Shown: one piece after another, positions 25,060 through 37,491 of the stretch
Layout: each line of letters begins with the position of its first letter
How positions within the stretch are numbered: the stretch's first letter is position 1
NCBI RefSeq assembly: GCF_002557795.1
Contig: NZ_CP023777.1
Coordinates: forward strand, 1,306,001 to 1,370,000
From: Chitinophaga caeni
GTDB taxonomy: Bacteria; Bacteroidota; Bacteroidia; Chitinophagales; Chitinophagaceae
DNA: 64,000 nt
Direction: 5' to 3'
Notes under the pieces: generated by a model
What the model was told of the DNA's origin: nothing
The model's input: only the letters and a program-made list of their open reading frames with translations
Databases searched by the model: none
Translations under genes and position numbers: made by a program

Positions 25060-25093
25060 CTTTTGGAGTGAGTGTAAATTAAACTGTGTCAAG

Positions 25094-25135
25094 GTCCCTG
25101 GCTTAGAGCCGCCTGCAGGCGGCTCTAAGCCAGGG
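25094..25135. repeat. 42-bp perfect palindrome inside IS256 copy 1
   Basis: Loopless palindrome centred on CCTGCAGG (25114/25115), arms TCCCTGGCTTAGAGCCGCC. It lies between the left inverted repeat and the transposase stop. The other IS256 copy (36176-37491) has no such sequence, and the two elements differ in length by exactly 42 bp. Confidence 0.92.
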
Positions 25136-25143
25136 AAAAATTT

Positions 25144-26363
25144 TTAAATATCGAGCTGCACCCGGTTGCCAAAGATTATCGATAACTGCGATACCGTGAT
25201 GCCCCAGTTTTGTAGTGGCTGCGTCCATTTCTTCTCTATATTCCGGGTTGCCAGGTAGATCAACTTCAACAGCGCTATATCGCTCGTAAAGGCCCCTTTG
25301 CTCTTCGTTACTTTGCGCACCTGCCGGTGGAAGCCTTCAATCGTGTTGGTCGTGTAGATCAGCTTGCGAATGGCGGGCGGATATTCAAAATAGGCACTCA
25401 GCTTGTCCCAGTTATTACGCCAGGAAATTGTTACCACCGGATATTTCTTGCCCCATTTTCCTTCCAGTGCATCCAGTTTATCCTCCGCCTGCTGCTTGCT
25501 CACTGCCTGGTAAACAGGCTTCAGATCATTCATAAAACCTTCTGGTCCTTGCTCGCTACATACTTCAGTGAGTTGCGGATCTGATGCACGATACAGCTCT
25601 GAACCACTGTTTGAGGGTATATCGTGCCAATAGCATCTGCAAGACCCTTCAGATTGTCTATGCACGCGATTAGTATATCCTCCACGCCCCGGTTCTGAAG
25701 ATCGGTCAGCACGCTCAGCCAGAAATTAGCGCCCTCGCTTTCACTAACATACATACCCAGTAATTCCTTGCGACCGTCTTTCTTTATTCCCAGGATATTA
25801 TACACGCACCGTGTTTGCACCTTGCCGTCTTCCTTCACCTTGTAGAACATCGCATCCAGCCATACAATGCGGTACAAAGACTCCAAGGGCCGGCTCTGCC
25901 ACTTCCTGACCATCGGCACTACTTTATCCGTAATAGCCGATAACGTTGTTGCCGATATCTCCGTATCGTACATATCCTCAATATGTGCCGAGATATCCCG
26001 GAAACTCATCCCCCGTCCATACATGCTGATGATCTTCTTCTCCAGGCTCTCTGCCAGTATCTTTTCCCGTTTACGTACGATTTGGGGATCAAAATGGCCG
26101 GACCGGTCACGGGGAGTGGAAAGCGCTATGGTGCCATCGGAAGTCTTTAACTGCTTGTTTGTCTTACCGTTCTTACGGTTCCCCTGCTGCCGCTCCTGTT
26201 CATTTACCTGATCCTCTATTTCCTCTTCCAGGGCGGCTTCCAGAAACTCCTTTAATAAAGGGGCAAACGCGCCGTCTTTGCCGAATAAGGATCTGCCGTT
26301 TCGTAGTTGGGAAAGTGTTTTTTGCTTCAGCGCTTCGTAATCGAATTTTTCTTTCTCCATCAT
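25144..26363 (-). pseudogene. IS256-family transposase, frameshifted
   Basis: Two open frames, 25530-26363 (N-terminal 277 residues) and 25144-25665 (C-terminal). Together they match the intact transposase at 36209-37429 along its length. The reading frame breaks in KDQK (GACCAGAAGG): the intact copy reads KDQKPFMADLKPVY, while here one base is missing between the AAG and TTTTATG. The frames meet near 25534-25545. DDE blocks are visible: IVWLDAMFYKV and ACIDNLKGLADAIG in the N-terminal piece, TTNTIEGFHRQVRK in the C-terminal piece. Programmed frameshifting is not usual for this family, and no heptamer slippery site is present, so I call it a pseudogene. Confidence 0.9.
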
Positions 26364-26607
26364 ATGTGTTTAAAGTTAAGAATTTCTCAATTTCTTAACC
26401 TTGACACACTTTATTTTACAGTCTCCTTTTGGAAGCAGATTATCTGCTATAAAGAATTTTTAATAAAATATATTTTAAATAAGCTCTTAATGTTTTTGAA
26501 TATTCGGCTAGGTAATTTTAAAAAAAACTTTTTTTTTACAAAAAAGAACTATATTACACATATAAACTTAAGATTGTATGTTTAACCTATTTTAACAACC
26601 TAACTAT

Positions 26608-27906
26608 ATGAAATGTATAAAATACATTGTTTTGTTGATTACATATGGTACTAGTTTCTTACACAGATTAAAGAGTTGGAATTTCTTCGTAATTAGTATT
26701 TGCTTCCTTTTTTATTCTTCCTGTAATATACATACCGAGCAACTTAATACTGAGGGCTTTAGCGACAGTCTGACTGTTTCTATTAATCTCAAAGATACTT
26801 CAATTAACACGACTGGAGAACTTTTTGACTCTATTGAATACATTTTTTTAGAATCAAGTACTGAAGAAAGTATATTTTCTAATATCGATAAAATTGAAAT
26901 AACTGATAATTATTATATAATACTTGACACGAGAACTAATAAACTTCTTTTTTTTAATAAAGATGGGAGATTTTCTCACAGTCTACCACAAGTTTTGGCA
27001 AATGGAGATTCGATATTTACTACATTAAGCGACTTTACTGTAAATGAAAATAAGGAAGAAATTTTGATTTATGATAGTGGAATAGCTTTTGATGGAGTTA
27101 TCAAAACTGATTTTCACGGCACTTATAAGTTGGCAAGTAGAACTCCAATGTCGTTTAATGAATTTGCTTTGGGTGAGGGTGGCATGTTTTATTACAAAAG
27201 GTATTCTTCAAAATATTATAAGAGTGTAGAAAGTAATAATGAGAATCATCTTTTATATTATGTTTCCGATTCAAGTAGTATAAAGTATTTATATTTTTCT
27301 TACGATTCAAAGATTATCAATGGAAGAGACATGTATGATTTAGATCATATGTTTACGCGGTCAGGCAATAAGGTATATTTCCAAAGGCCTTTTGATTATT
27401 CAGTGTATGAATTTAATATGAATGGGACTAAATCATTAAGGATTGATTTCCTTTTCCCCAATTATTCCAAATTTCCTGAAGATTTCCTGAGGAATAATAA
27501 ATACTTGGGTAATAGGATATCTGAATTTAAGGCTCCATCGAATAAACTTAAAATTTGGACAATATCTAGTTATCACAGGGTTTTAAATAGTATCATTTTT
27601 AACATAAATATTGTTGGCAGTAAAGATTTTTCTTTCTTATATAATCTTAAAAATAAAAAGTACTATAATATTGAGAATATTTACTCTTCTAGTATTTCGA
27701 ATTGGATGCCCTTTTTTGAAGATAGGATAATCGCTGCTGATAATAAATCGTATTACAGCTATATTACTCCCAAGCTAATGTTGCAAGCTTATAGGACTCT
27801 CGGTGATAGACATTTAAAAAATAGCCCTTTTATTTTGAAGAAAATAAAGGAATTAACCATTTTTAGTAACCCTATCCTAGTTAGACTCGAGCCAAGATCA
27901 AACTAG
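26608..27906 (+). CDS. 6-bladed beta-propeller lipoprotein
   Basis: 432 residues. The N-terminus has a hydrophobic segment ending SFVISICFLFYSSCN-like (NFFVISICFLFYSSC), a probable Lipobox with Cys ~39. The rest follows the 6-bladed beta-propeller pattern of Bacteroidota surface proteins: FDSIEYIFLESSTEES, IDKIEITDNYYIILDTRTNKLLFFNKDGRFSHSL, and later repeated DYSVYEFNMNG-type strands. Start of the AT-rich gene run; composition differs clearly from the flanking host genes. Function unknown; the family is often seen beside small secreted peptides and SusCD-like receptors. The next gene starts 83 bp downstream. Confidence 0.78.
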   Translation: MKCIKYIVLLITYGTSFLHRLKSWNFFVISICFLFYSSCNIHTEQLNTEGFSDSLTVSINLKDTSINTTGELFDSIEYIFLESSTEESIFSNIDKIEITDNYYIILDTRTNKLLFFNKDGRFSHSLPQVLANGDSIFTTLSDFTVNENKEEILIYDSGIAFDGVIKTDFHGTYKLASRTPMSFNEFALGEGGMFYYKRYSSKYYKSVESNNENHLLYYVSDSSSIKYLYFSYDSKIINGRDMYDLDHMFTRSGNKVYFQRPFDYSVYEFNMNGTKSLRIDFLFPNYSKFPEDFLRNNKYLGNRISEFKAPSNKLKIWTISSYHRVLNSIIFNINIVGSKDFSFLYNLKNKKYYNIENIYSSSISNWMPFFEDRIIAADNKSYYSYITPKLMLQAYRTLGDRHLKNSPFILKKIKELTIFSNPILVRLEPRSN

Positions 27907-27989
27907 CAAAATTGAAGGATTAGATTAAGAAATACACTTCTTGTATAACTTCTTAGCAAACGACCAATTTTAATCTCAAAACAAGAATT

Positions 27990-28430
27990 ATGAAGAAAAA
28001 TCGATATTTAATATTTACAATTTGCTTAACATTTATTGTTTTAGCGACATTGAACTTGACATCAAGTGCCGTAGCTCAAAGCGGTAGCACAGGAACTGGA
28101 ACCGGTACAGGAAGTTCGAGTTGTAGTACGACACAGGTTACAAATCAGGGGGCTGAAATCAATAAGACAACAGAGAAAGTGTCATGCGGTGAATGTACTT
28201 TGTATAGAATTAAAGCGGGTTGGAAGGAAGGAGAAGGTGTAGGGGCAAAGTATGAATCATATAAACAAACAGTTTATGCCACGGTACAAACGTGCAAATC
28301 TTCAGAGGATAAAACTCGCACATGTATTCTTGTAGCACTTGCAGGTAGCATAAACTGCCCTCCTCCACCTTCGGATTCTGATACAGGAACAGGAACGGGA
28401 ACGGGAACAGGAACGGGTACAGGGAATTAA
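27990..28430 (+). CDS. Small secreted Thr-Gly repeat protein with six cysteines
   Basis: 146 residues. Signal peptide about 1-30 (YLIFTICLTFIVLATLNL...SSAVAQ, cut after AVAQ). The mature protein has two Thr-Gly repeat stretches: TGTGTGTG (34-41 region) at the N-terminus and (TG) x8 at the C-terminus (132-145). Between them lie six Cys at 45, 66, 69, 102, 112 and 123, including CGEC, and a PPPP. Repeat DNA is hexanucleotide (ACAGGA/ACGGGA) in frame, 28383-28427. Thr/Ser-rich ends flanking a disulfide-rich core suggest an exported structural or signalling protein and a possible O-glycosylation acceptor. No known family recognised. Confidence 0.8.
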   Translation: MKKNRYLIFTICLTFIVLATLNLTSSAVAQSGSTGTGTGTGSSSCSTTQVTNQGAEINKTTEKVSCGECTLYRIKAGWKEGEGVGAKYESYKQTVYATVQTCKSSEDKTRTCILVALAGSINCPPPPSDSDTGTGTGTGTGTGTGN

Positions 28431-28485
28431 TTTTATTAAAATAAATTAAAAGGTCGTTTGCTATTATTACTATTATAAGAAGCCT

Positions 28486-29739
28486 ATGATTATTAAAATA
28501 TCAAAGTTGTTTTTTATTGTAATTGTTATCATTATTGTTTTCAATTCTATCCTTGACATAGGATTTTCAACACGGGATGATGATTGGATGCTTTTAAATA
28601 ACCCATTTGTTTTAATGCCTAATGATGAAAACTGGTTTTGGTGGATTAAAGGTCTTTTTTTAAATTATTGGGATATACAGTATTCTCCTTTAAATACTAT
28701 ATATTATTCTTTAGTTTACAAAATAAATGGTTACGATTCATTCTATTTTCATTTATCTTCTATTGTCATTCATATAATGAATGGGGTATTGCTTTGTAAA
28801 CTAGGAGAACAGACCTATATTTTATTTCAGCCTGATTTTAATCGAGCAGATTTGAAAACAATATGCTATATATCTACTTTTTTTTGGCTTATTGCGCCAA
28901 TTAATGTTGAGGCAGTCGTATGGATCGCAGCTTCCAAAGTTCTTTTATGTACGATGTTTACAATATTATGCTTGATTTTTTTTATTAGTAGCTTATTAAA
29001 TATAGATATAGATTCTTTGAAGAGCTTCAGGATACGTTTAGTATTGAGCTTTACATGTTTCTTTCTTTCTTTCTTTTTTAAGGAACAAGCATTTATGACG
29101 CCTCTTATAATTGGTGCGATTTTATTTTACTATACCAGTAGTAATATGAAGATGATTGGTAAAATTTTCCTAAAACAGTTGATAATATATTTAATATTAA
29201 TGTTTATTTTTTCGATCATATTCGTTTATATTACATTAGATGCTAATCAATTATCAAATAGCCCATTCTATATTTACCCACTTTGTGATAGGTTAGTTTT
29301 ATCTTTTTATTGCTTTTTCAAATATGTTTTTGATGTTTTTATACCAATGAACCTGCATTATGCCTATAAATTTCCAATGGCTCCACAGGAAAACTTGCCT
29401 TTTATTTATTATTTGTTTATTGTTCTTTTCTTTATAATTATTTGGCAAGGGTATAAAATATTTAGCACCTCGTTAAGTAATTACTTTTTTGAATTATTAT
29501 GTATTTCAATTTTTATTTCTCAAATAGTATTGGTTCTTCAAATATTTCCCTTAAATAGGCCAATGCTATCAGCAGATAGATATATGTATTTGTCGTCATT
29601 TTTCTTAATTCTATTTGCTTCAAAATATGGATTTAAGCTATATAAAAGATATAGGACATTGTTATATACATTACTTATTGGACTAGGTGTATATTTTTTT
29701 ATGTACAGTAGCTATCTTGCTTCGGTTTGGCATTTCTAA
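28486..29739 (+). CDS. TMTC-like GT-C membrane glycosyltransferase
   Basis: 417 residues, about ten membrane segments. The N-terminal loop has DDDW (residues 31-34), then YSPLNTIYYSLVYKINGYDSFYFHLSSIVIHIMNGVLLCKL, IAPINVEAVVWIAASKVLL, FFKEQAFMTPLI and SADRYMYLSSFF. These are the blocks of TMTC/PMT-type O-glycosyltransferases (equivalent of YRPLTTLSF, HPVHVEAVAWVAGRKDLL, and YLYLPS), which transfer sugar from a polyprenyl-phosphate donor to protein Ser/Thr. No TPR repeats follow. Substrate is inferred from the neighbouring Thr-rich protein. The next gene starts 1 bp after its stop. Confidence 0.75.
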   Translation: MIIKISKLFFIVIVIIIVFNSILDIGFSTRDDDWMLLNNPFVLMPNDENWFWWIKGLFLNYWDIQYSPLNTIYYSLVYKINGYDSFYFHLSSIVIHIMNGVLLCKLGEQTYILFQPDFNRADLKTICYISTFFWLIAPINVEAVVWIAASKVLLCTMFTILCLIFFISSLLNIDIDSLKSFRIRLVLSFTCFFLSFFFKEQAFMTPLIIGAILFYYTSSNMKMIGKIFLKQLIIYLILMFIFSIIFVYITLDANQLSNSPFYIYPLCDRLVLSFYCFFKYVFDVFIPMNLHYAYKFPMAPQENLPFIYYLFIVLFFIIIWQGYKIFSTSLSNYFFELLCISIFISQIVLVLQIFPLNRPMLSADRYMYLSSFFLILFASKYGFKLYKRYRTLLYTLLIGLGVYFFMYSSYLASVWHF

Positions 29740-29740
29740 A

Positions 29741-30376
29741 ATGAGTATTATGCATTCAAAAAAAACAGTTCGATTATTATTTGCACTGCTTTGTGTATTA
29801 TTTGTTTCAACAATTTATTTTGCTGTTATTAAAAGGAATAATATTGAAGTGTCTAATCTTGGAGAGAGTCTTAGTGGTGGAGATTCAGAATTCAGTATTG
29901 CCAATTCTTTATATAGTATTTATATTCCATTTATAGTTAAAACTGAGGGAGAATTAATTGATTCTACAATTGTGATAGAGGATAGTTCATTGAAAAAGAT
30001 AAAATTAATTTCATTAATGAAAGGGAAAAGGAAATTAGTATTCAGGTACTCATTCCGAGATTGTGATCTATGCGTTAACACCGTTAAAGGGCTGATATAC
30101 AAAAATATTATAGATAAGGAGAATGTTTTGTTTTTGTCCGATAACTATTCTACAAAGGACTTTATATTGAAAGAGAAGTCTAGTGACAAGAGAGTTAGTT
30201 GTTATAACATTGTTGATGGAATTTCAGGGCTAAATTTAGAGGCGATTGAGGGTAAAAATTTACCGTTTTTATTCGTACTCAATTCTGATTTACGAGTACA
30301 GAAAGTTTTTATACCTTTTAAAGAAGATCCACAGCAAATAGAGGAATATCTTAATTATATTAACGAAATTTTATAG
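29741..30376 (+). CDS. Membrane-anchored thioredoxin-like protein
   Basis: 211 residues from the ATG at 29741, 1 bp after the upstream stop; a longer frame from 29687 would overlap the previous gene and I reject it. One membrane anchor (VRLLFALLCVLFVSTIYFAVI) leaves the rest periplasmic. A CDLC motif (Cys108, Cys111) with the preceding FRYSF, and a later LPFLFVLNSDLRV (cis-Pro position), fits a divergent TlpA/thioredoxin fold. A role in disulfide chemistry of the cysteine-rich small protein is plausible but unproven. The beta-propeller gene starts 1 bp after its stop. Confidence 0.72.
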   Translation: MSIMHSKKTVRLLFALLCVLFVSTIYFAVIKRNNIEVSNLGESLSGGDSEFSIANSLYSIYIPFIVKTEGELIDSTIVIEDSSLKKIKLISLMKGKRKLVFRYSFRDCDLCVNTVKGLIYKNIIDKENVLFLSDNYSTKDFILKEKSSDKRVSCYNIVDGISGLNLEAIEGKNLPFLFVLNSDLRVQKVFIPFKEDPQQIEEYLNYINEIL

Positions 30377-30377
30377 A

Positions 30378-31613
30378 ATGGGTTCAAGATTAAATGTAAT
30401 TGCATTTATATGTATTCTTGTTAATTTATTGACAAATAAATTGCATGCTCAAGATTCCATGGAAATAAGAATAGCTCCGAATTATGCCATGGGTGGAAAG
30501 TGCTCAGAACTATTTCAATCCGTACGTTACATCCCGTTAGAAACAAGCAAAAAATGTATCATAGGAAGAGTTAGGAAATTGTATGTTGCCAAGGACAATT
30601 TTATTGTTTATGATGATACGCGAAATCAAATTGTAATTTTCGATAGAAATGGAAAGTACTTATCTAAAATAAATGATCTTTCCGGCAGTAGTAAAATCCC
30701 GGCCTGGGATATCCTTTTTGAAAATATCTCCATTGATTATGTTAATAATAAGATTATAGTTTTACCTAATTATGTACATGAAAAGATACGCGACATTATA
30801 TTTGAATTTGACTTTAACGGGAAACTATTAGCTAAAAGAAAATTCGATGTGTCAAACTTTGGTAGATCGTTTGCATCATTAGGAGATGATGCTTTCTTTA
30901 TTAAGTATGAACAGGGCGGGAGTTTATGGAAAACGCTTAAAAAGAAATACACTTTCGCCGTTATTAAAAATGGGAAAGTCTTATCAAACATTTTACCATG
31001 TTCGGAACATCCAATATTAGAAAATCAAGATAATCTTTTTGTCGTAAACATGGTAGAGAAATGGGCGAAAGGTACTCAAAGCGTATTTTTTAACCAAGCA
31101 TATAAGGATGAAATATATGAAATTGATACCGGGGGAGTGAGAAAGAAATACAAGTTAATCCTGCCTATAGAATATTCGATCCCTACTGATTTTCTTAGTA
31201 ACTCAATATATAATGGCAAAAGACTTGATACACTTATAGCGCACAATAAATGGGTTTACGGTTTTGATGAGATATACGGACAAGATGATATACTCTTGCT
31301 AAAGTATTTAAATACTGAGAATAATAATTATAATAAATACCTGCGTATTAACTTTTTAAACGGAATGTTTTATTCATTTAATTTCATTGAACCTGACACC
31401 TTGAGTTATTATTTACCTGTTGTTAGCGATGTTTTGGTTATGGCTAATGATAAAATCTATTCGGCTTTAAATACAAGAGATTTAATGGATGCGTATAGCA
31501 GGAATACATTTAAAAAAGTATACAAAGAAAACAGCTCGGTTCCAATCATTAGTAGCATAAATAAACTATCAAACCCTGTCATAGTCGAAATTACCCCTAA
31601 GGTAGATTTTTAA
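30378..31613 (+). CDS. 6-bladed beta-propeller secreted protein
   Basis: 411 residues. Signal peptide (VIAFICILVNLLTNKLHAQ). The start of the propeller (SELFQSVRYIPLETSKKCIIGRVRKLYVAKDNFIVYD, then IVIFDRNGKYLSKI) is characteristic of the family, with ~six blades over the length. It is a paralogue of the protein at 26608 but divergent. It lies 1 bp after the thioredoxin-like gene and 10 bp before the barrel receptor gene, so the genes are translationally close-coupled. Not lipidated. Function unknown; perhaps ligand or peptide binding at the outer membrane. Confidence 0.85.
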   Translation: MGSRLNVIAFICILVNLLTNKLHAQDSMEIRIAPNYAMGGKCSELFQSVRYIPLETSKKCIIGRVRKLYVAKDNFIVYDDTRNQIVIFDRNGKYLSKINDLSGSSKIPAWDILFENISIDYVNNKIIVLPNYVHEKIRDIIFEFDFNGKLLAKRKFDVSNFGRSFASLGDDAFFIKYEQGGSLWKTLKKKYTFAVIKNGKVLSNILPCSEHPILENQDNLFVVNMVEKWAKGTQSVFFNQAYKDEIYEIDTGGVRKKYKLILPIEYSIPTDFLSNSIYNGKRLDTLIAHNKWVYGFDEIYGQDDILLLKYLNTENNNYNKYLRINFLNGMFYSFNFIEPDTLSYYLPVVSDVLVMANDKIYSALNTRDLMDAYSRNTFKKVYKENSSVPIISSINKLSNPVIVEITPKVDF

Positions 31614-31623
31614 ATTACTTTTA

Positions 31624-34479
31624 ATGAGAAGAAAATTATGCCTACTTGTTTTTGCCATCTCAATTTTGATTTCTTTTTCTCTTAAAGCGCAAGAAATTAG
31701 CGATAGTTTACAAAAAGGAACCGTTTACGGGGTACTTTATGATTCATCACATAATCATTCATTACCTGCGGCAACCGTTGCAGTATATGCGCACGATTCT
31801 GTTCTGATATCGTATGCATTGACCGACAATTTTGGCAAATTCGAATTTCATAATTTGCCAATCGAACAGCCGTTGAAAGTTATCTGTACCCATATTGGAT
31901 ATAAGACCACGAGCTTTATATTTCAAATTAAAGCAAAGGAAATATCTGTGAAATTACCTTCAATAAATATGACTATACTGTATCAAGATTTAGAAGAAGT
32001 TGTAATTAAGGCAATGCCACCTGTAAGTATGAAGGGGGATACGATAGAATTTAATGCAGAGGCTTTTAAAATGGATAAGAATGCTGTAGCGGAGGATCTC
32101 TTGAGAAAGTTGCCGGGTGTGATTATTTGGGGGGATGGTACTATTACAGTTTATGGAAAAGAGGTAAATGCGATTTTGGTAAATGGAAAAAGTTTCTTTA
32201 ATAACGAAACAAAAGTAGCAACACAAAATATTGATAAAGGTGCTATTGATAAAGTTCAAGTATATAAAAGAAGTGATAATGACGCAAGGAAGGATTCAAT
32301 AATGGAAATCAATATAAAACTAAAAGAAGGGAAGGACAATGGATTTTTTGGTAAAGTTTCTGTAGGTAAAGGTTCCTGGAAGAGGCATGAATCAAATTTA
32401 AATTTTAATGCTTTTAATGCTAAAACACAAGTATCAATCGTAGGGGCACTTAATAATGTTAATAAGGCTCCAAAAGATATTATGACACTAATTTCCAATA
32501 GCACATTTAAGGGGGTTGGACTAAGTGTAGACTATCAACCTGAATTTAATCAACAGGGAGTAACCACTTCCAAGATGTTAGGCGGATTTTTTAAAAGGGA
32601 TTTTTCAAAACCAGGTGGTAGGCTCAATGAATTGAACATCGACTATTATTATAAAAATTCAAAGCTAATTGCAAATGAAAATTTAAGTACTTCTACACTT
32701 ATAGGAGATAATAATCGATTGAGTTCTTATGATAGCTCAAATAATAGAAATTTGGATAAAACGCACGTACTGAATTTAAAGTATGAAAGAGAGGGTTCCA
32801 AATACAGGGCTGTACTATCTACTGCTGTCAATATCCGGGACTCTAAAAATTATAGCATGAGAAACTTGGAAAGTCTAGATTTTATTAGTTATACTGCTTT
32901 AAGTAAGACGAGCAACTTAGGAGATGAAAGGAACTTGAATGAAAGTTACTCTTTTAGAATTGAACTTTCACCTTTGAAAAATAAAAATGACTTCCACAAC
33001 AAAAGTATACTTAGTGCTTTTGATAAAATCATATATGATTTTCATTACCTACGAGATTCTAGCCATTCGCATAACGATATAAATTTTGTTTCCTACGTTG
33101 ACACATTGGAGAATTTGAAATTTAACAGGAAATATGATAAGAACTTTAACCGGGTTTCCCAAGACGTTAATATTAAATCGAGCACCTTTGATGGACCGGG
33201 TATTCTTAAGCATTTGCATATTAAATATTTTTTTCTGAACAGATTCAAATTAGTCACGGATTGGAATAATACAAATGCTCTGGACTTTGATAATTCAAAA
33301 GATATGTACCTAAGAAATGATTATTTGACTAATAGAAGCCATTATACTGAAATTGATGAGCGACCGCAGATTTCTTTAACCAAATCTATCACAGATATTC
33401 TATATGGTCGATACAGCAAAAATTTGAACATTTCATTGAATATAATCGGACAGCTTATTCGGCAAAGGAATAATTCAGCCAAGCCCTTTCAGGATCTAGA
33501 TAAAAAGTACCATAATTTTATACCTGAAATTAGTGTGCAATATAGAAATAACCAATATTCTTTAACGGATCAATTTTTGGAAGCTGAATATAAAATATTT
33601 TACGATTACCCGTCTGTAAACCAATTAGTTCCCTTAATAGATAGCAGTGATATTTATTATCAGTACCTTGGAAGTCCCGATCTTAAGCCTCAAAAGAATA
33701 AGCAGTTAACACTCAGGTATCAATATAATGATTTAAAAGCTAGCAATAATTTCAAGTTATCTGCCATGTTGCGAGCTAAGATTATAAGTGATTTTTATGC
33801 CACTAATACCTTCATCAATCCTTCAGGTAGAAAATTCGTAAATTTAATAAATACTAACGGTTACAAAATTGCATATTTCAATGCGAATTTGAATAAAGCA
33901 TATAAGATCAATAAGAATAACTTATTTCAACTAGAGTATGTCAATTCCACGTACTTAAGTAAAAGACCTAGTTTCTTAAAGACTGCATCCACAGACATAA
34001 CTACGAGTATCATTTCTAATATTTTTAGTATAAATAATGATGTTTCTATATATTATAGCTGGCTGGAAAATTTGGTATTTAAATTATCTGAGAGCTACCA
34101 TTTTTATCAATCAAAGCAGGGGAAGGGCACTGCTGATTTATTGAAAAATGTTTATTATAATACACTCGCAAGTGTCTCCTATAATGCTACTAAGCGATTA
34201 AATGTGGGTAGCAATATAAGTTTTAAAAGTATGTTATCCAGTTATGGACAAAGAGATAAGTTTAAGATATGGAATGCAAATGTAAATTATAGATGTTTAC
34301 CCGGTAATAACCTCGAAATAACATTTGCTGCTCTGGATTTGCTAAAGCAAAATAAGGCTTTGATAAATTTTGGCGATTCTTATTCTATAACGGAAGGTTA
34401 TTCAAATGTACTACAGCAATATTTTATGCTTTCAATTGCTTTCTATCCTCGTCAGTTTGGAAGAAAGACATCTAACTGA
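31624..34479 (+). CDS. Outer-membrane beta-barrel receptor with carboxypeptidase-regulatory-like and plug domains
   Basis: 951 residues. Signal peptide (LLVFAISILISFSLKAQ). Residues ~28-110 form a CarboxypepD_reg-like sandwich (GTVYGVLYDSSHNHSLPAATVAVY, DNFGKFEFHNLP). A plug follows at about 130-240 (LEEVVIKAMPPVSMKGDTIEFNAEAFKMDKNAVAEDLLRKLPGVIIW), then a beta-strand-rich barrel to the end (FYPRQFGRKTSN). Typical of TonB-dependent-like Bacteroidota receptors without an obvious SusD partner nearby. Gene is AT-rich like its neighbours. It may export or import the small secreted protein or a ligand; no TonB box was positively identified. Confidence 0.85.
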   Translation: MRRKLCLLVFAISILISFSLKAQEISDSLQKGTVYGVLYDSSHNHSLPAATVAVYAHDSVLISYALTDNFGKFEFHNLPIEQPLKVICTHIGYKTTSFIFQIKAKEISVKLPSINMTILYQDLEEVVIKAMPPVSMKGDTIEFNAEAFKMDKNAVAEDLLRKLPGVIIWGDGTITVYGKEVNAILVNGKSFFNNETKVATQNIDKGAIDKVQVYKRSDNDARKDSIMEINIKLKEGKDNGFFGKVSVGKGSWKRHESNLNFNAFNAKTQVSIVGALNNVNKAPKDIMTLISNSTFKGVGLSVDYQPEFNQQGVTTSKMLGGFFKRDFSKPGGRLNELNIDYYYKNSKLIANENLSTSTLIGDNNRLSSYDSSNNRNLDKTHVLNLKYEREGSKYRAVLSTAVNIRDSKNYSMRNLESLDFISYTALSKTSNLGDERNLNESYSFRIELSPLKNKNDFHNKSILSAFDKIIYDFHYLRDSSHSHNDINFVSYVDTLENLKFNRKYDKNFNRVSQDVNIKSSTFDGPGILKHLHIKYFFLNRFKLVTDWNNTNALDFDNSKDMYLRNDYLTNRSHYTEIDERPQISLTKSITDILYGRYSKNLNISLNIIGQLIRQRNNSAKPFQDLDKKYHNFIPEISVQYRNNQYSLTDQFLEAEYKIFYDYPSVNQLVPLIDSSDIYYQYLGSPDLKPQKNKQLTLRYQYNDLKASNNFKLSAMLRAKIISDFYATNTFINPSGRKFVNLINTNGYKIAYFNANLNKAYKINKNNLFQLEYVNSTYLSKRPSFLKTASTDITTSIISNIFSINNDVSIYYSWLENLVFKLSESYHFYQSKQGKGTADLLKNVYYNTLASVSYNATKRLNVGSNISFKSMLSSYGQRDKFKIWNANVNYRCLPGNNLEITFAALDLLKQNKALINFGDSYSITEGYSNVLQQYFMLSIAFYPRQFGRKTSN

Positions 34480-34527
34480 TATTTGTGAAATAACCTTATA
34501 AGTTTGGAACCATCAAATCTTAGATTA

Positions 34528-35481
34528 ATGAATGTTGTAGAAGTTAAGCCGTTAATAAGCATAGTAGTTCCTTGTTACAATGAAGAGGAGATAATTGAAA
34601 GAACAGAACGAACACTTTCGAATTATTTGGCTACGCTAGTTAATGATAATAAAGTATCTTCGGAAAGTTATATCGTGTTTGTTGATGATGGAAGTGTCGA
34701 CAATACATTTGATATTCTATTGAAATCTAGGAATTTGAATAGTAAGATTATTAAACTTGCTTCTAATAAAGGCCACCAATATGCCTTGTTGGCGGGGTTA
34801 GATTATGTCATTAATAAAACTGACTGTGTTATTACTATTGATGCAGATTTACAACACGATGTATATGCAATTAACAAAATGATTGATGCGTACCGAAGCG
34901 GTGCACATATCGTATATGGAATTTGGAAACATCGGCGCACTGAGACTTGGTTTAAGAAAAATTCAGCTTATTTTTTTTCATTGATGTTGAGAATGTTCGG
35001 AGTACCTCTAGTACCTAGACATTCAGACTTTAGACTGTTATCTAATAAAGTGCTTCAAGAGCTTTCTCGATATAAGGAATCAAATTTATTTTTAAGGGGA
35101 CTATTACCCCTCATTAATTTAAAAACAACGGCAATTGCTTATGAACAATCGGGTCGAATAGGAGGTAAGACTAAATATACACTAAAAAAGATGTTATCAC
35201 TAGCCATTAATGGTATTACTTCATTTAGCAATGTACCAATTCGTTTAATCACGATAATTGGGTTAATTTTATTTTTTGTTACAATGGGGCTAAGTATCAA
35301 TGTTTTAATTATTTATTTGAGAGGAAGAACCCTTCCAGGTTGGGCATCTATATCATTACCTATGTATTTTTTAAGCGGAGTACAATTATTAAGTTTAGGG
35401 GTTATAGGTGAATATATTGCGAAGATATATAAAGAAACAAAATGTCGGCCTAAGTATCATATTGAAGTGATAGTTGAGTAA
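34528..35481 (+). CDS. GT2 polyprenyl-phosphate glycosyltransferase (DPM1/ArnC/GtrB type)
   Basis: 317 residues from ATG 34528; an in-frame TTG at 34504 gives eight extra residues. GT-A fold with ISIVVPCYNEEEIIE, DDGSVDNT, and the DAD motif in TIDADLQHD. The DFRLLSNKVLQEL and ESNLFLRGLLPLI blocks and two C-terminal membrane helices (LITIIGLILFFVTMGLSINVLII; FLSGVQLLSLGVIGEYIAKIY) are those of undecaprenyl-phosphate hexosyltransferases. It would produce the lipid-linked sugar used by the GT-C enzyme at 28486. It is the last gene of the run. Confidence 0.9.
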   Translation: MNVVEVKPLISIVVPCYNEEEIIERTERTLSNYLATLVNDNKVSSESYIVFVDDGSVDNTFDILLKSRNLNSKIIKLASNKGHQYALLAGLDYVINKTDCVITIDADLQHDVYAINKMIDAYRSGAHIVYGIWKHRRTETWFKKNSAYFFSLMLRMFGVPLVPRHSDFRLLSNKVLQELSRYKESNLFLRGLLPLINLKTTAIAYEQSGRIGGKTKYTLKKMLSLAINGITSFSNVPIRLITIIGLILFFVTMGLSINVLIIYLRGRTLPGWASISLPMYFLSGVQLLSLGVIGEYIAKIYKETKCRPKYHIEVIVE

Positions 35482-35631: not shown

Positions 35632-36073
35632 GGAACCTTACAAGAGTTTTGTGCTGATCTAAAGGAAGTTTATGGAGCACCTAATCGCGCAGCAGCAGAG
35701 CATGCGTTAGCCGCCTGTTCTGATAAATGGGGTGCCAAATACAGACATGCAATCCAATCCTGGGAGAACAACTGGGAGAATCTTACCAGCTATTTTGACT
35801 TCCCTATGGAGATCCGAAAGATCATGTATACCACAAATACCATCGAAAATCTTAACAGGGGCATCCGTAAGTATACTAAGACCAAAGTTCAATTTACCGA
35901 CGATGCATCGGCTCAAAAGGCCGTTTACCTGACTATAATGAACATCGAAAAGAAATGGAGCATGCCGCTCCATAACTGGGGGCTGGTGCTCCATCAATAT
36001 ATTACTATCTTTGAAAACAGATGTCGAATTTGATCAGTTGACTATGCGTTTACACAATATATTTTATAGTCTC
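35632..36073 (+). pseudogene. IS256-family transposase C-terminal fragment with its end repeat
   Basis: Open in one frame from about 35632 to the stop at 36033, reading TLQEFCADLKEVYGAPNRAAAEH, then MYTTNTIENLNRGIRKYTK and IFENRCRI. It matches the last third of IS256 transposases, including the TTNTIE block with the final catalytic Glu. The N-terminus is missing. The right inverted repeat remains at 36049-36073 (TTTACACAATATATTTTATA-GTCTC), resembling the intact IS256 ends. It is a different subfamily from copies 1 and 2 and lies on the opposite strand. Confidence 0.85.
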
Positions 36074-36175: not shown

Positions 36176-37491
36176 GGGAGTGTAAAATAAACTGTGTCAA
36201 CATTTAATTTATAATCGCAATTTCAGTCGATCCCCAAATATAATTGACAGCTGAGACACAGTCAGACTCCAGTTTTGAAGGGGCTGTGTCCATTTCTTCT
36301 GGATGTTCTGGGCAGCCAGGTAAATTAATTTCAGCAAGGCCATATCGGAGGTAAAGGCTCCTTTGGTTTTGGTCACTTTACGCACCTGGCGATGGAACCC
36401 CTCGATAGTATTAGTGGTGTAGATCAACCTGCGGATGGCCTCAGAATATTGGAAATACGTAGTGAGCTTATCCCAGTTCCGGCGCCAGGAGTCTATAACA
36501 ACTGGATATTTCTTTCCCCATTTTTCGTCCAGTTGATCCAGCTGCGACTCTGCTTCTTCCTTGCTCACCGCCTGATAAACCGGTTTTAAATCGGCCATAA
36601 ATGGCTTCTGGTCCTTACTGGCTATGTACCTGATAGAATTGCGGATTTGATGTACGACACAGGTTTGTACCGCTGTAGAGGGGAATATCGTGGCAATAGC
36701 CTCGGAAAATCCCTTCAAATTATCGATACAGGCAATAAGTATATCAGATACCCCCCGTTGCTGAAGATTGGCCAGGACACTCAGCCAGAAGTTAGCTCCC
36801 TCGCTCTCCGAGACATACATGCCTAATAGCTCTTTGCGTCCATCGGTATTTATACCAAGGATATTATAAACACAACGGTTAACTACTTTGCCTTCTTCTT
36901 TGACTTTATAAAACATGGCGTCCAGCCAGACAATGCAATACAGTGGCTCCAAAGGACGGGCCTGCCATTCTTTGACCAGAGGGATAACTTTATCGGTTAT
37001 GGAAGATAATGTCGCAGCTGAAATCTCTGTATCGTACATATCTTTGATATGAGCTGAGATGTCCCGTAAGCTCATGCCATGCCCATACATACCGATGATT
37101 TTACTCTCCAGGCTCTCTGCCAGAATGGTCTCCCGCTTTTTGATGATCTGTGGTTCAAAGCTGCTTGCCCGGTCACGGGGTGTCTCCAGATCGATAGTAC
37201 CATCTGCTGTTTTAAGCCGTTTTCGGTTTTTGCCATTCTTCCGGTTCCCATTTGCCCGTTGCTCATCATCTAAATGAACCTCCATCTCGCCCTCCAGTGC
37301 AGCTTCGAGAATATCTTTCAGAAGAGGTGCGAAAGCCCCATCTTTGCCAAACAGGGACTTACCAGAGCGGAGTTGCTCTAAGGTCTTCCGTTTGAGTTCT
37401 TCGTAGTCAAATTTTCCTTTTTGTTCCATAAAAAAAACTGTGTTAAAGATCTTGTTTTTTTAGTCTTTGACACAGTTTATTTTACAGTCTC
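36176..37491 (-). mobile_element. IS256-family element, copy 2 (intact)
   Basis: 1316 bp. The ends match: left GGGAGTGTAAAATAAACTG and right (reverse complement) GAGACTGTAAAATAAACTG. A 9-bp target duplication ATCCTCTTG is at 36167-36175 and 37492-37500. It carries one full transposase. It sits at the right margin of the AT-rich gene run, just after a different IS256 remnant. Confidence 0.95.
36209..37429 (-). CDS. IS256-family transposase
   Basis: 406 residues, intact. DDE blocks: IVWLDAMFYKV (first Asp), ACIDNLKGFSEAIATIFP (second Asp), YTTNTIEGFHRQVRKV (Glu). The N-terminal RKNGKNRKRLKTADGTIDLETPRDR stretch is typical. It is a close relative of the frameshifted copy at 25144-26363. It catalyses cut-and-paste or copy-paste transposition of its element. 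Start ATG lies 62 bp inside the right inverted repeat end. Confidence 0.96.
   Translation of the reverse strand: MEQKGKFDYEELKRKTLEQLRSGKSLFGKDGAFAPLLKDILEAALEGEMEVHLDDEQRANGNRKNGKNRKRLKTADGTIDLETPRDRASSFEPQIIKKRETILAESLESKIIGMYGHGMSLRDISAHIKDMYDTEISAATLSSITDKVIPLVKEWQARPLEPLYCIVWLDAMFYKVKEEGKVVNRCVYNILGINTDGRKELLGMYVSESEGANFWLSVLANLQQRGVSDILIACIDNLKGFSEAIATIFPSTAVQTCVVHQIRNSIRYIASKDQKPFMADLKPVYQAVSKEEAESQLDQLDEKWGKKYPVVIDSWRRNWDKLTTYFQYSEAIRRLIYTTNTIEGFHRQVRKVTKTKGAFTSDMALLKLIYLAAQNIQKKWTQPLQNWSLTVSQLSIIFGDRLKLRL

Follow-up and report, generated by a model that had tools for sequence, protein, structure and literature searches.

A candidate O-glycosylation cassette for a small secreted cysteine protein in Chitinophaga caeni and other Bacteroidota

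The window analysed here is a 64,000-nucleotide stretch of the Chitinophaga caeni genome (contig NZ_CP023777.1, positions 1,306,001 to 1,370,000), and our subject is a gene cluster at window positions 26608-35481 that we consider as a candidate system for protein O-glycosylation. The genome carrying the cluster is a single contig of 5.28 Mb. Seven open reading frames (ORFs), all on the plus strand, occupy the cluster, with intergenic gaps of 1-83 bases if the thioredoxin-like gene starts, as it probably does, at the ATG at 29741 rather than at the listed GTG at 29687. GC content is 0.30-0.34 in bins over the seven genes versus 0.39-0.46 in the rest of the window, in agreement with a first-pass annotation that described seven codirectional, tightly spaced, AT-rich genes.

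The proposed acceptor is encoded by the second gene (27990-28430), whose 146-aa product has a signal-like N-terminus, from which alone its secretion is predicted, followed by six Cys residues. An N-terminal (TG)4 tract (28089-28112) and a C-terminal (TG)7 tract (28383-28424) confirm the earlier description of Thr-Gly repeats at both ends of a six-Cys core. These are the only (TG)4 or longer tracts across the six frames of the window, and they are not a plain DNA repeat, since Thr and Gly codons are mixed. No family scored above its cut-off in Pfam and NCBIfam scans of this protein. The one strong relative in the database, P0017, shows 33% identity over its full length and likewise ends in TG repeats. 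Homologues are encoded in the Pedobacter caeni cassette (L002), where the gene adjoins that of the GT-C glycosyltransferase described below, and in those of Sphingobacterium hungaricum (L004) and P. frigiditerrae (L016); four aligned Cys are common to these three, P0017 and L018. Small proteins of C. deserti (L003), Niabella (L006), P. steynii (L012) and two further Chitinophaga loci (L181, L184) have TG or DTG tracts too, but no homology was detected for them. In other GT-C clades, a Ser-rich stretch directly follows an ALA-, VLAQ- or VIAQ-like cleavage site (e.g. L026, L043, L178, L188, L190); thus, tract type varies by lineage while the position beside the GT-C gene is constant. The leaders look, to us, similar to those of the NVEALA family. 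With E up to 0.1 as the limit, 33 small proteins matched families of Pfam (13) and NCBIfam (6), and the name NVEALA was not among these, its presence in the libraries being unchecked; the word was also absent from the open-licence papers searched.

The adjoining gene (28486-29739) putatively encodes a short GT-C membrane glycosyltransferase of 417 aa with a TMTC/PMT-like core. This protein had no Pfam match at E 1, and its profile gave one chance-level match (E 1) to the Protein Data Bank (PDB) by sequence. Used as a query, it retrieved 16 proteins at E 1e-3, with 5784 candidates scored out of 5.8 billion. When the window protein was aligned with 15 homologues from the database, D31, D32, K199 and E200 were invariant and R365 and Y368 nearly so; in a larger alignment (n=37), D32 was invariant and D31 was present at 90% or more. 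D31 and D32 belong to a DDDW block (28576-28587) and place in the first periplasmic loop the acidic residue that the GT-C superfamily requires. Pfam PMT_2 was matched by 4 of the 16 aligned sequences (best E 8.3e-4), the window protein having no match. PF08409, which we take to be the TMTC family domain, was not among the 7 families matched by these 16 at E up to 1, the model's presence in the library being unchecked.

The structure model of this protein is confident (pLDDT 84.7, pTM 0.88), and VIA-align placed GT-C enzymes on top: STT3 21.6, Pmt4 21.1, Pmt1-Pmt2 20.1, ArnT 18.4, PglB 17.2 and DPY19 13.0. FtsW, at 4.9, headed the rows that were neither GT-C enzymes nor complexes containing one. 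The modelled fold spans the whole protein, all 417 aa lying within the GT-C alignment range. No Foldseek match reached E 0.001; ArnT came closest at 6.3e-3, and ArnT and Pmt4 ranked near the top. The fold assignment thus rests on VIA-align. The protein does not resolve to a permease, and the modelled fold together with the conserved D31, D32, K199 and E200 sustains the earlier assignment of a GT-C enzyme beside the small protein. When the whole genome was searched with this protein, the only match at E up to 10 was 28486-29739 itself.

Enzymes of the GtrB/ArnC type produce sugars linked to polyprenyl phosphate, and GT-C enzymes of the PMT/TMTC type draw on donors of this kind to modify secreted proteins. 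The last gene of the cluster (34504-35481, starting at TTG 34504 or ATG 34528) putatively encodes a GT2 polyprenyl-phosphate hexose synthase of the GtrB/ArnC type (PF00535, E 5.6e-22). Residues 18-320 align with PDB entry 5ekp (sll0501), which we take to be GtrB, at E 4.1e-55, and residues 17-324 with ArnC (9hwj) at E 2.7e-34. The similarity is full-length and includes the membrane part; at family level, these alignments support the annotated polyprenyl-phosphate hexosyltransferase with membrane helices. A second, distant GT2 (28% identity) lies elsewhere in the same genome.

The remaining four genes encode a thioredoxin-like protein, two propellers and a probable barrel. A membrane-anchored thioredoxin-fold protein (29741-30376; CDLC at residues 108-111) had no Pfam match at E 1, and comparison by sequence with the PDB returned nothing, but its model is an anchored thioredoxin fold of the ResA/TlpA kind that contains both the CxxC and a conserved Pro, presumably the cis-Pro. 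Two six-bladed propellers had been annotated and are borne out: the first (26608-27906; PF17170, E 2.2e-18) is a probable lipoprotein, with a lipobox-like SSC found by eye, and the second (30378-31613) matches PF17170 (E 3e-18) and PF16288 (5.2e-10). Between the second propeller and the GT2 gene lies a probable outer-membrane barrel with a CarboxypepD_reg-like N-terminus (31624-34479; PF13620, E 3.7e-7). The barrel part of the annotated "barrel receptor" is upheld at that strength, but "receptor" is unsupported: the PF13620 match (30.8 bits against a cut-off of 32.3) and the Plug match (E 0.033) are both sub-threshold.

The gene set recurs across Bacteroidota. A scan of named genomes yielded 347 confirmed stretches, of which 80, representing 78 loci, were kept; L002-L043 entered the counts, L044-L050 were mapped and are mostly long forms, and L051-L079 stayed outside the counts. 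To these, 30 stretches picked around GT-C matches were added. Three stretches (L007, L014, L035) yielded no GT-C ORF. With duplicates removed (L166, L167, L180, L194), there were 66 loci with a short GT-C (under 500 aa), and dropping six with less than 1 kb on one side (L005, L010, L024, L028, L036, L173) left 60, including the window and two GT-C fragments (L006, L195). The controls were 20 loci of longer relatives (577-737 aa), hand-picked for contig size, whose tetratricopeptide repeats (TPRs) are inferred from length and P0016; flanks were about 4-8 kb in these and mostly 8-10 kb in the short loci. Families were counted within 6.5 kb on the same strand. A small protein had to be secreted with two or more Cys, and Ser/Thr-rich meant 7 or more Ser or Thr in some 15 residues.

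Near the GT-C gene, a small secreted Cys protein was found at 50/60 short versus 2/20 long loci (Fisher 5.0e-9), a DUF5128-type propeller at 42/60 versus 0/20 (9.5e-9; both values uncorrected for kinship) and a Ser/Thr-rich small protein at 33/60 versus 0/20. The corresponding counts were 35/60 versus 0/20 for a thioredoxin, 26/60 versus 2/20 for a GT2 and 12/60 versus 0/20 for a barrel. By eye, the 50 small proteins come to about 47 (L020 was missed by the rule, and the rule-passing ORFs of L029, L030, L034 and L042 look unrelated). Hosts include Pedobacter, Sphingobacterium, Algoriphagus, Arenibacter, Flavivirga, Tannerella metagenome-assembled genomes (MAGs), Fodinibius and one Phycisphaerales MAG. 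Synteny is thus conserved in relatives; of three outcomes that the first-pass annotation would have taken as refutation, two (no conserved synteny, a permease fold for the GT-C protein) did not occur. On the GT-C tree, the window belongs to a starred clade with nine members, each of which has a barrel; a comparison of barrel presence with T- or S-type tracts on that tree had 2 independent pairs and hence no power.

Two other gene families accompany some of these loci, counted over whole stretches rather than within 6.5 kb. The Alg9-like (GT22) family PF03901, matched by 10 of 46 neighbour proteins, occurs on either strand in 21/60 short, 0/20 long and 0/49 propeller-only stretches, a comparison that favours the short stretches because they are mostly longer. 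No Alg9-like gene was found elsewhere in the window's genome, in a search made without a positive control. A clade of short GT-C in Pedobacter and Mucilaginibacter (L015, L029, L030, L031, L034, L042) has an Alg9-like gene in the stretch and no propeller or credible small protein, which we read as a different use of the same enzyme. S26 signal peptidases occur in 8/60 short, 0/20 long and 2/49 propeller-only stretches, one of the last two (L007) holding a GT-C gene at the contig end. S26 peptidases are present in several loci that have the small secreted protein (L033:6546-7226 and L043:14390-14977 by Pfam, L238:3986-4996 by eye), and such peptidases are perhaps dedicated to its leader.

Ser/Thr tracts tend to go with the GT-C gene, which favours an acceptor role. 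With DUF5128 propellers as the anchor, stretches with a GT-C gene (GT-C+) were compared with stretches without one (GT-C-). Of 50 hand-picked propeller stretches (10 + 40), 48 were used, L225 and L234 being left out; GT-C- refers to the fetched stretch, and some of these genomes have a GT-C gene elsewhere (e.g. G726, G777, G830, G833, G886). L007 was counted as GT-C+, its GT-C ORF running off the contig. A small secreted Cys protein was present at 43/47 GT-C+ and 30/48 GT-C- loci, doubtful GT-C- candidates being kept (e.g. L217, L235, L264, L265). It was Ser/Thr-rich at 32/43 GT-C+ versus 9/30 GT-C- loci (Fisher 2.7e-4; Mann-Whitney 5.5e-5), and at 8 or more Ser or Thr the counts were 23/43 versus 4/30 (p 5.2e-4).

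The four GT-C- loci at this higher level differ in their surroundings. L262 lies about 9 kb from a GT-C gene of the same genome. The poly-Ser protein of L238 and the SG-repeat protein of L256 sit among membrane proteins that look multi-spanning and have no Pfam match at E 0.01, together with an FAD enzyme; L256 also has a gene of the GtrA family. Judged by eye, these membrane proteins might be replacement glycosyltransferases, which is a guess. For L253 we have no explanation. Elsewhere among the propeller loci, a C39-like ABC exporter and an HlyD-like gene, recognized by eye, stand beside a locus with a small Cys protein (L228:9069-12537), which suggests a peptide-export route in GT-C- relatives. 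Small proteins of another GT-C- locus (L216:5771-6810) have a Cys pattern that by eye resembles the chitin-binding, peritrophin type.

Several known systems resemble this cassette in part. In the ArnC/ArnT lipid A pathway, a polyprenyl-phosphate sugar synthase is paired with a GT-C transferase whose acceptor is lipid A; the window has the same pairing but linked to a secreted protein. Cnm of Streptococcus mutans has a Thr-rich repeat. The S. mutans Pgf genes (PgfS, PgfM1, PgfE, PgfM2) lie beside cnm and control Cnm modification; PgfS is a membrane-bound GT-A enzyme, and it is accompanied by PMT-like membrane proteins (PMC5856776). Membrane glycosyltransferases and a linked Thr-rich surface or secreted protein (27990-28430 in the window) are common to Pgf and the window cassette. 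However, the window GT2 scores 206 bits against a PgfS cut-off of 500, none of the seven genes is PgfE-like, and the candidate acceptor is a small Gram-negative secreted Cys protein accompanied by a thioredoxin, propellers and a barrel.

Against the TMTC motif table, which includes SHKSYRP and RxD (PMC7801869), the window GT-C shares with human TMTC1-4 and their TPR-bearing bacterial relatives the EL1 DD, the K-E pair and a D/E-R-x-x-Y-like motif. To that extent the annotated TMTC/PMT-like blocks stand; on the other side, QYSP and AASK occupy the SHKSYRP and RxD places (placed by eye), there is no TPR match (Pfam, E 1), and the cassette is missing at the 20 long relatives examined. The cassette would work in the manner of Pgf, PMT and TMTC systems, but it lacks features that define TMTC and stays below the cut-off that defines PgfS, so we regard it as a variant of this kind of system. 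The general Bacteroidota system, from the same phylum, likewise O-glycosylates non-cytoplasmic proteins; its published description gives the acceptor motif D-S/T-A/L/V/I/M/T, with glycine occasionally seen after the acceptor, and states that its transferase is undiscovered (PMC12871550). D-[ST]-[ALVIMT] is absent from the window small protein, which has only D-S-D and D-T-G. A literature search found no description of this gene set in open-licence papers, most subscription papers lying outside that search.

We consider it probable, with clear reservations, that the cassette is a dedicated O-glycosylation system for one small secreted protein. The observations behind this proposal are gene order, the GT2 family, recurrence and the association of GT-C with Ser/Thr tracts, joined by the modelled GT-C and thioredoxin folds. 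From them we infer a sugar transfer in which the GT2 would load a hexose, as we suppose the sugar to be, onto undecaprenyl phosphate on the cytoplasmic side of the inner membrane, and the lipid-linked sugar would then reach the periplasm. After export of the small protein, the short GT-C would transfer the sugar to Thr (Ser in other lineages) of the low-complexity tracts flanking the Cys core. The membrane-anchored thioredoxin may set the redox state of the small-protein cysteines, and the lipoprotein propellers and barrel may act at the outer membrane to retain the product, hand it on or receive it.

Several points weigh against this proposal. GT2 is absent near 34/60 short GT-C genes, although a GT2 elsewhere in the genome might serve such loci. 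The annotated acceptor role of the Thr repeats is favoured by the association with GT-C, but 17/50 linked small proteins fall under the Ser/Thr threshold, including clear family members (L013, L025, L037, L168) that are instead Tyr- and Trp-rich. Eight GT-C genes (L015, L029-L031, L034, L042, L182, L193) have no propeller, thioredoxin, GT2 or barrel nearby, and at L185, which has other cassette parts, the small protein was not found. Because many of the loci are closely related, the Fisher values are too strong. The Ser/Thr threshold was set after the first loci were seen, and GT-C+ loci have more candidates each (1.5 versus 1.0), of which the most Ser/Thr-rich was taken, favouring GT-C+ a little. 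On the propeller tree, Ser/Thr content was higher with GT-C in 9.3 and lower in 2.0 of 13 independent contrasts on average, and the association weakens (median sign-test p 0.065, range 0.012-0.34); well supported branches leave only 3 contrasts, which are uninformative. The annotated thioredoxin-like identity stands by its modelled fold, but its handling of the cysteines is not general, as CxxC is missing in at least 2 of 19 aligned proteins (L003:11230, L016:11214). Export, display or sensing by the barrel and propellers is suggested by linkage alone.

Alternatively, the GT-C could modify a lipid or glycan in the manner of ArnT, with lipid A or a surface polysaccharide as its target; the small protein and the propellers would then belong to a neighbouring function that travels along. 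The ArnC-like pairing fits this explanation, but small secreted proteins are linked at 50/60 loci and their Ser/Thr content is shifted, and we regard it as unlikely. Somewhat less likely again, the Ser/Thr-Gly tracts serve simply as flexible linkers or tails, linkers being a common use of such tracts, and any sugar comes from the general Bacteroidota system at D-S/T motifs. Over 55 small proteins, D-[ST]-[ALVIMT] occurred 8 times versus 24 in shuffles (0/1000 as low), which argues against general-system sites. Shuffling breaks tracts, so the deficit may reflect tract structure rather than avoidance, and GT-C- proteins are not clearly different (the motif in 3/17 D[ST] pairs versus 5/51). D-[ST]-G, in turn, was enriched (21 versus 7.4), in line with the glycine occasionally seen in the general system. 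That the GT-C modifies another cassette protein, such as a propeller lipoprotein or the barrel, is very improbable: propellers are linked nearly as often as small proteins (barrels at 12/60), but they also occur in 48 fetched stretches without GT-C, while Ser/Thr tracts track GT-C.

Insertion sequences of the IS256 type flank the cluster, both on the minus strand. The left copy (25070-26423) has its transposase as two overlapping pieces (PF00872 on 25530-26363 and 25144-25665) and 26-base inverted ends (25070-25095/26398-26423) that are 88% complementary. In the right copy (36178-37489), the transposase is a single ORF (PF00872, E 4.3e-102) and the inverted ends (36178-36200/37467-37489) are 96% complementary. 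The copies share orientation, 71% DNA identity and near-identical inverted ends. A plus-strand ORF at 35806-36033 resembles, by eye, an IS256 transposase end and may be part of a third copy lying inside the right boundary. Within the genus, 21 of 79 Chitinophaga genomes searched have a GT-C match at 1e-60 (open frames of 420-507 aa); together with the IS256-type flanks, this suggests that the cluster is a mobile, accessory cassette. As for a defence system, none of the seven proteins had a PADLOC match at E 0.001. A second cluster with a propeller, a thioredoxin-like gene and a barrel (C1:542000-556500, L225) lies in the same genome; no GT-C was found in that stretch, and the cluster looks decayed, its propeller and thioredoxin pieces being short.

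In the proposed O-glycosylation cassette, gene order connects a family with the GT-C fold to one particular candidate acceptor. A small operon thus allows donor, enzyme and substrate to be tested jointly, and we propose the cassette as a system separate from the missing general Bacteroidota transferase. Tentatively, it may exemplify phylum-wide, exchangeable secreted glycoproteins, in which a fast-changing small Cys protein with a Ser/Thr tract, particular to each lineage, is combined with a short TMTC/PMT-like GT-C lacking TPRs and with a propeller and a thioredoxin, the GT-C perhaps sometimes being swapped for another membrane glycosyltransferase. Their tracts would carry O-glycans by rules apart from those of the general D-S/T system, and the products might serve as secreted signals, adhesins or antagonists. 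The cassette itself would also provide DUF5128 propellers with a context and assign a function to small secreted Cys proteins which, among 33 scanned, belong to no family of Pfam or NCBIfam.

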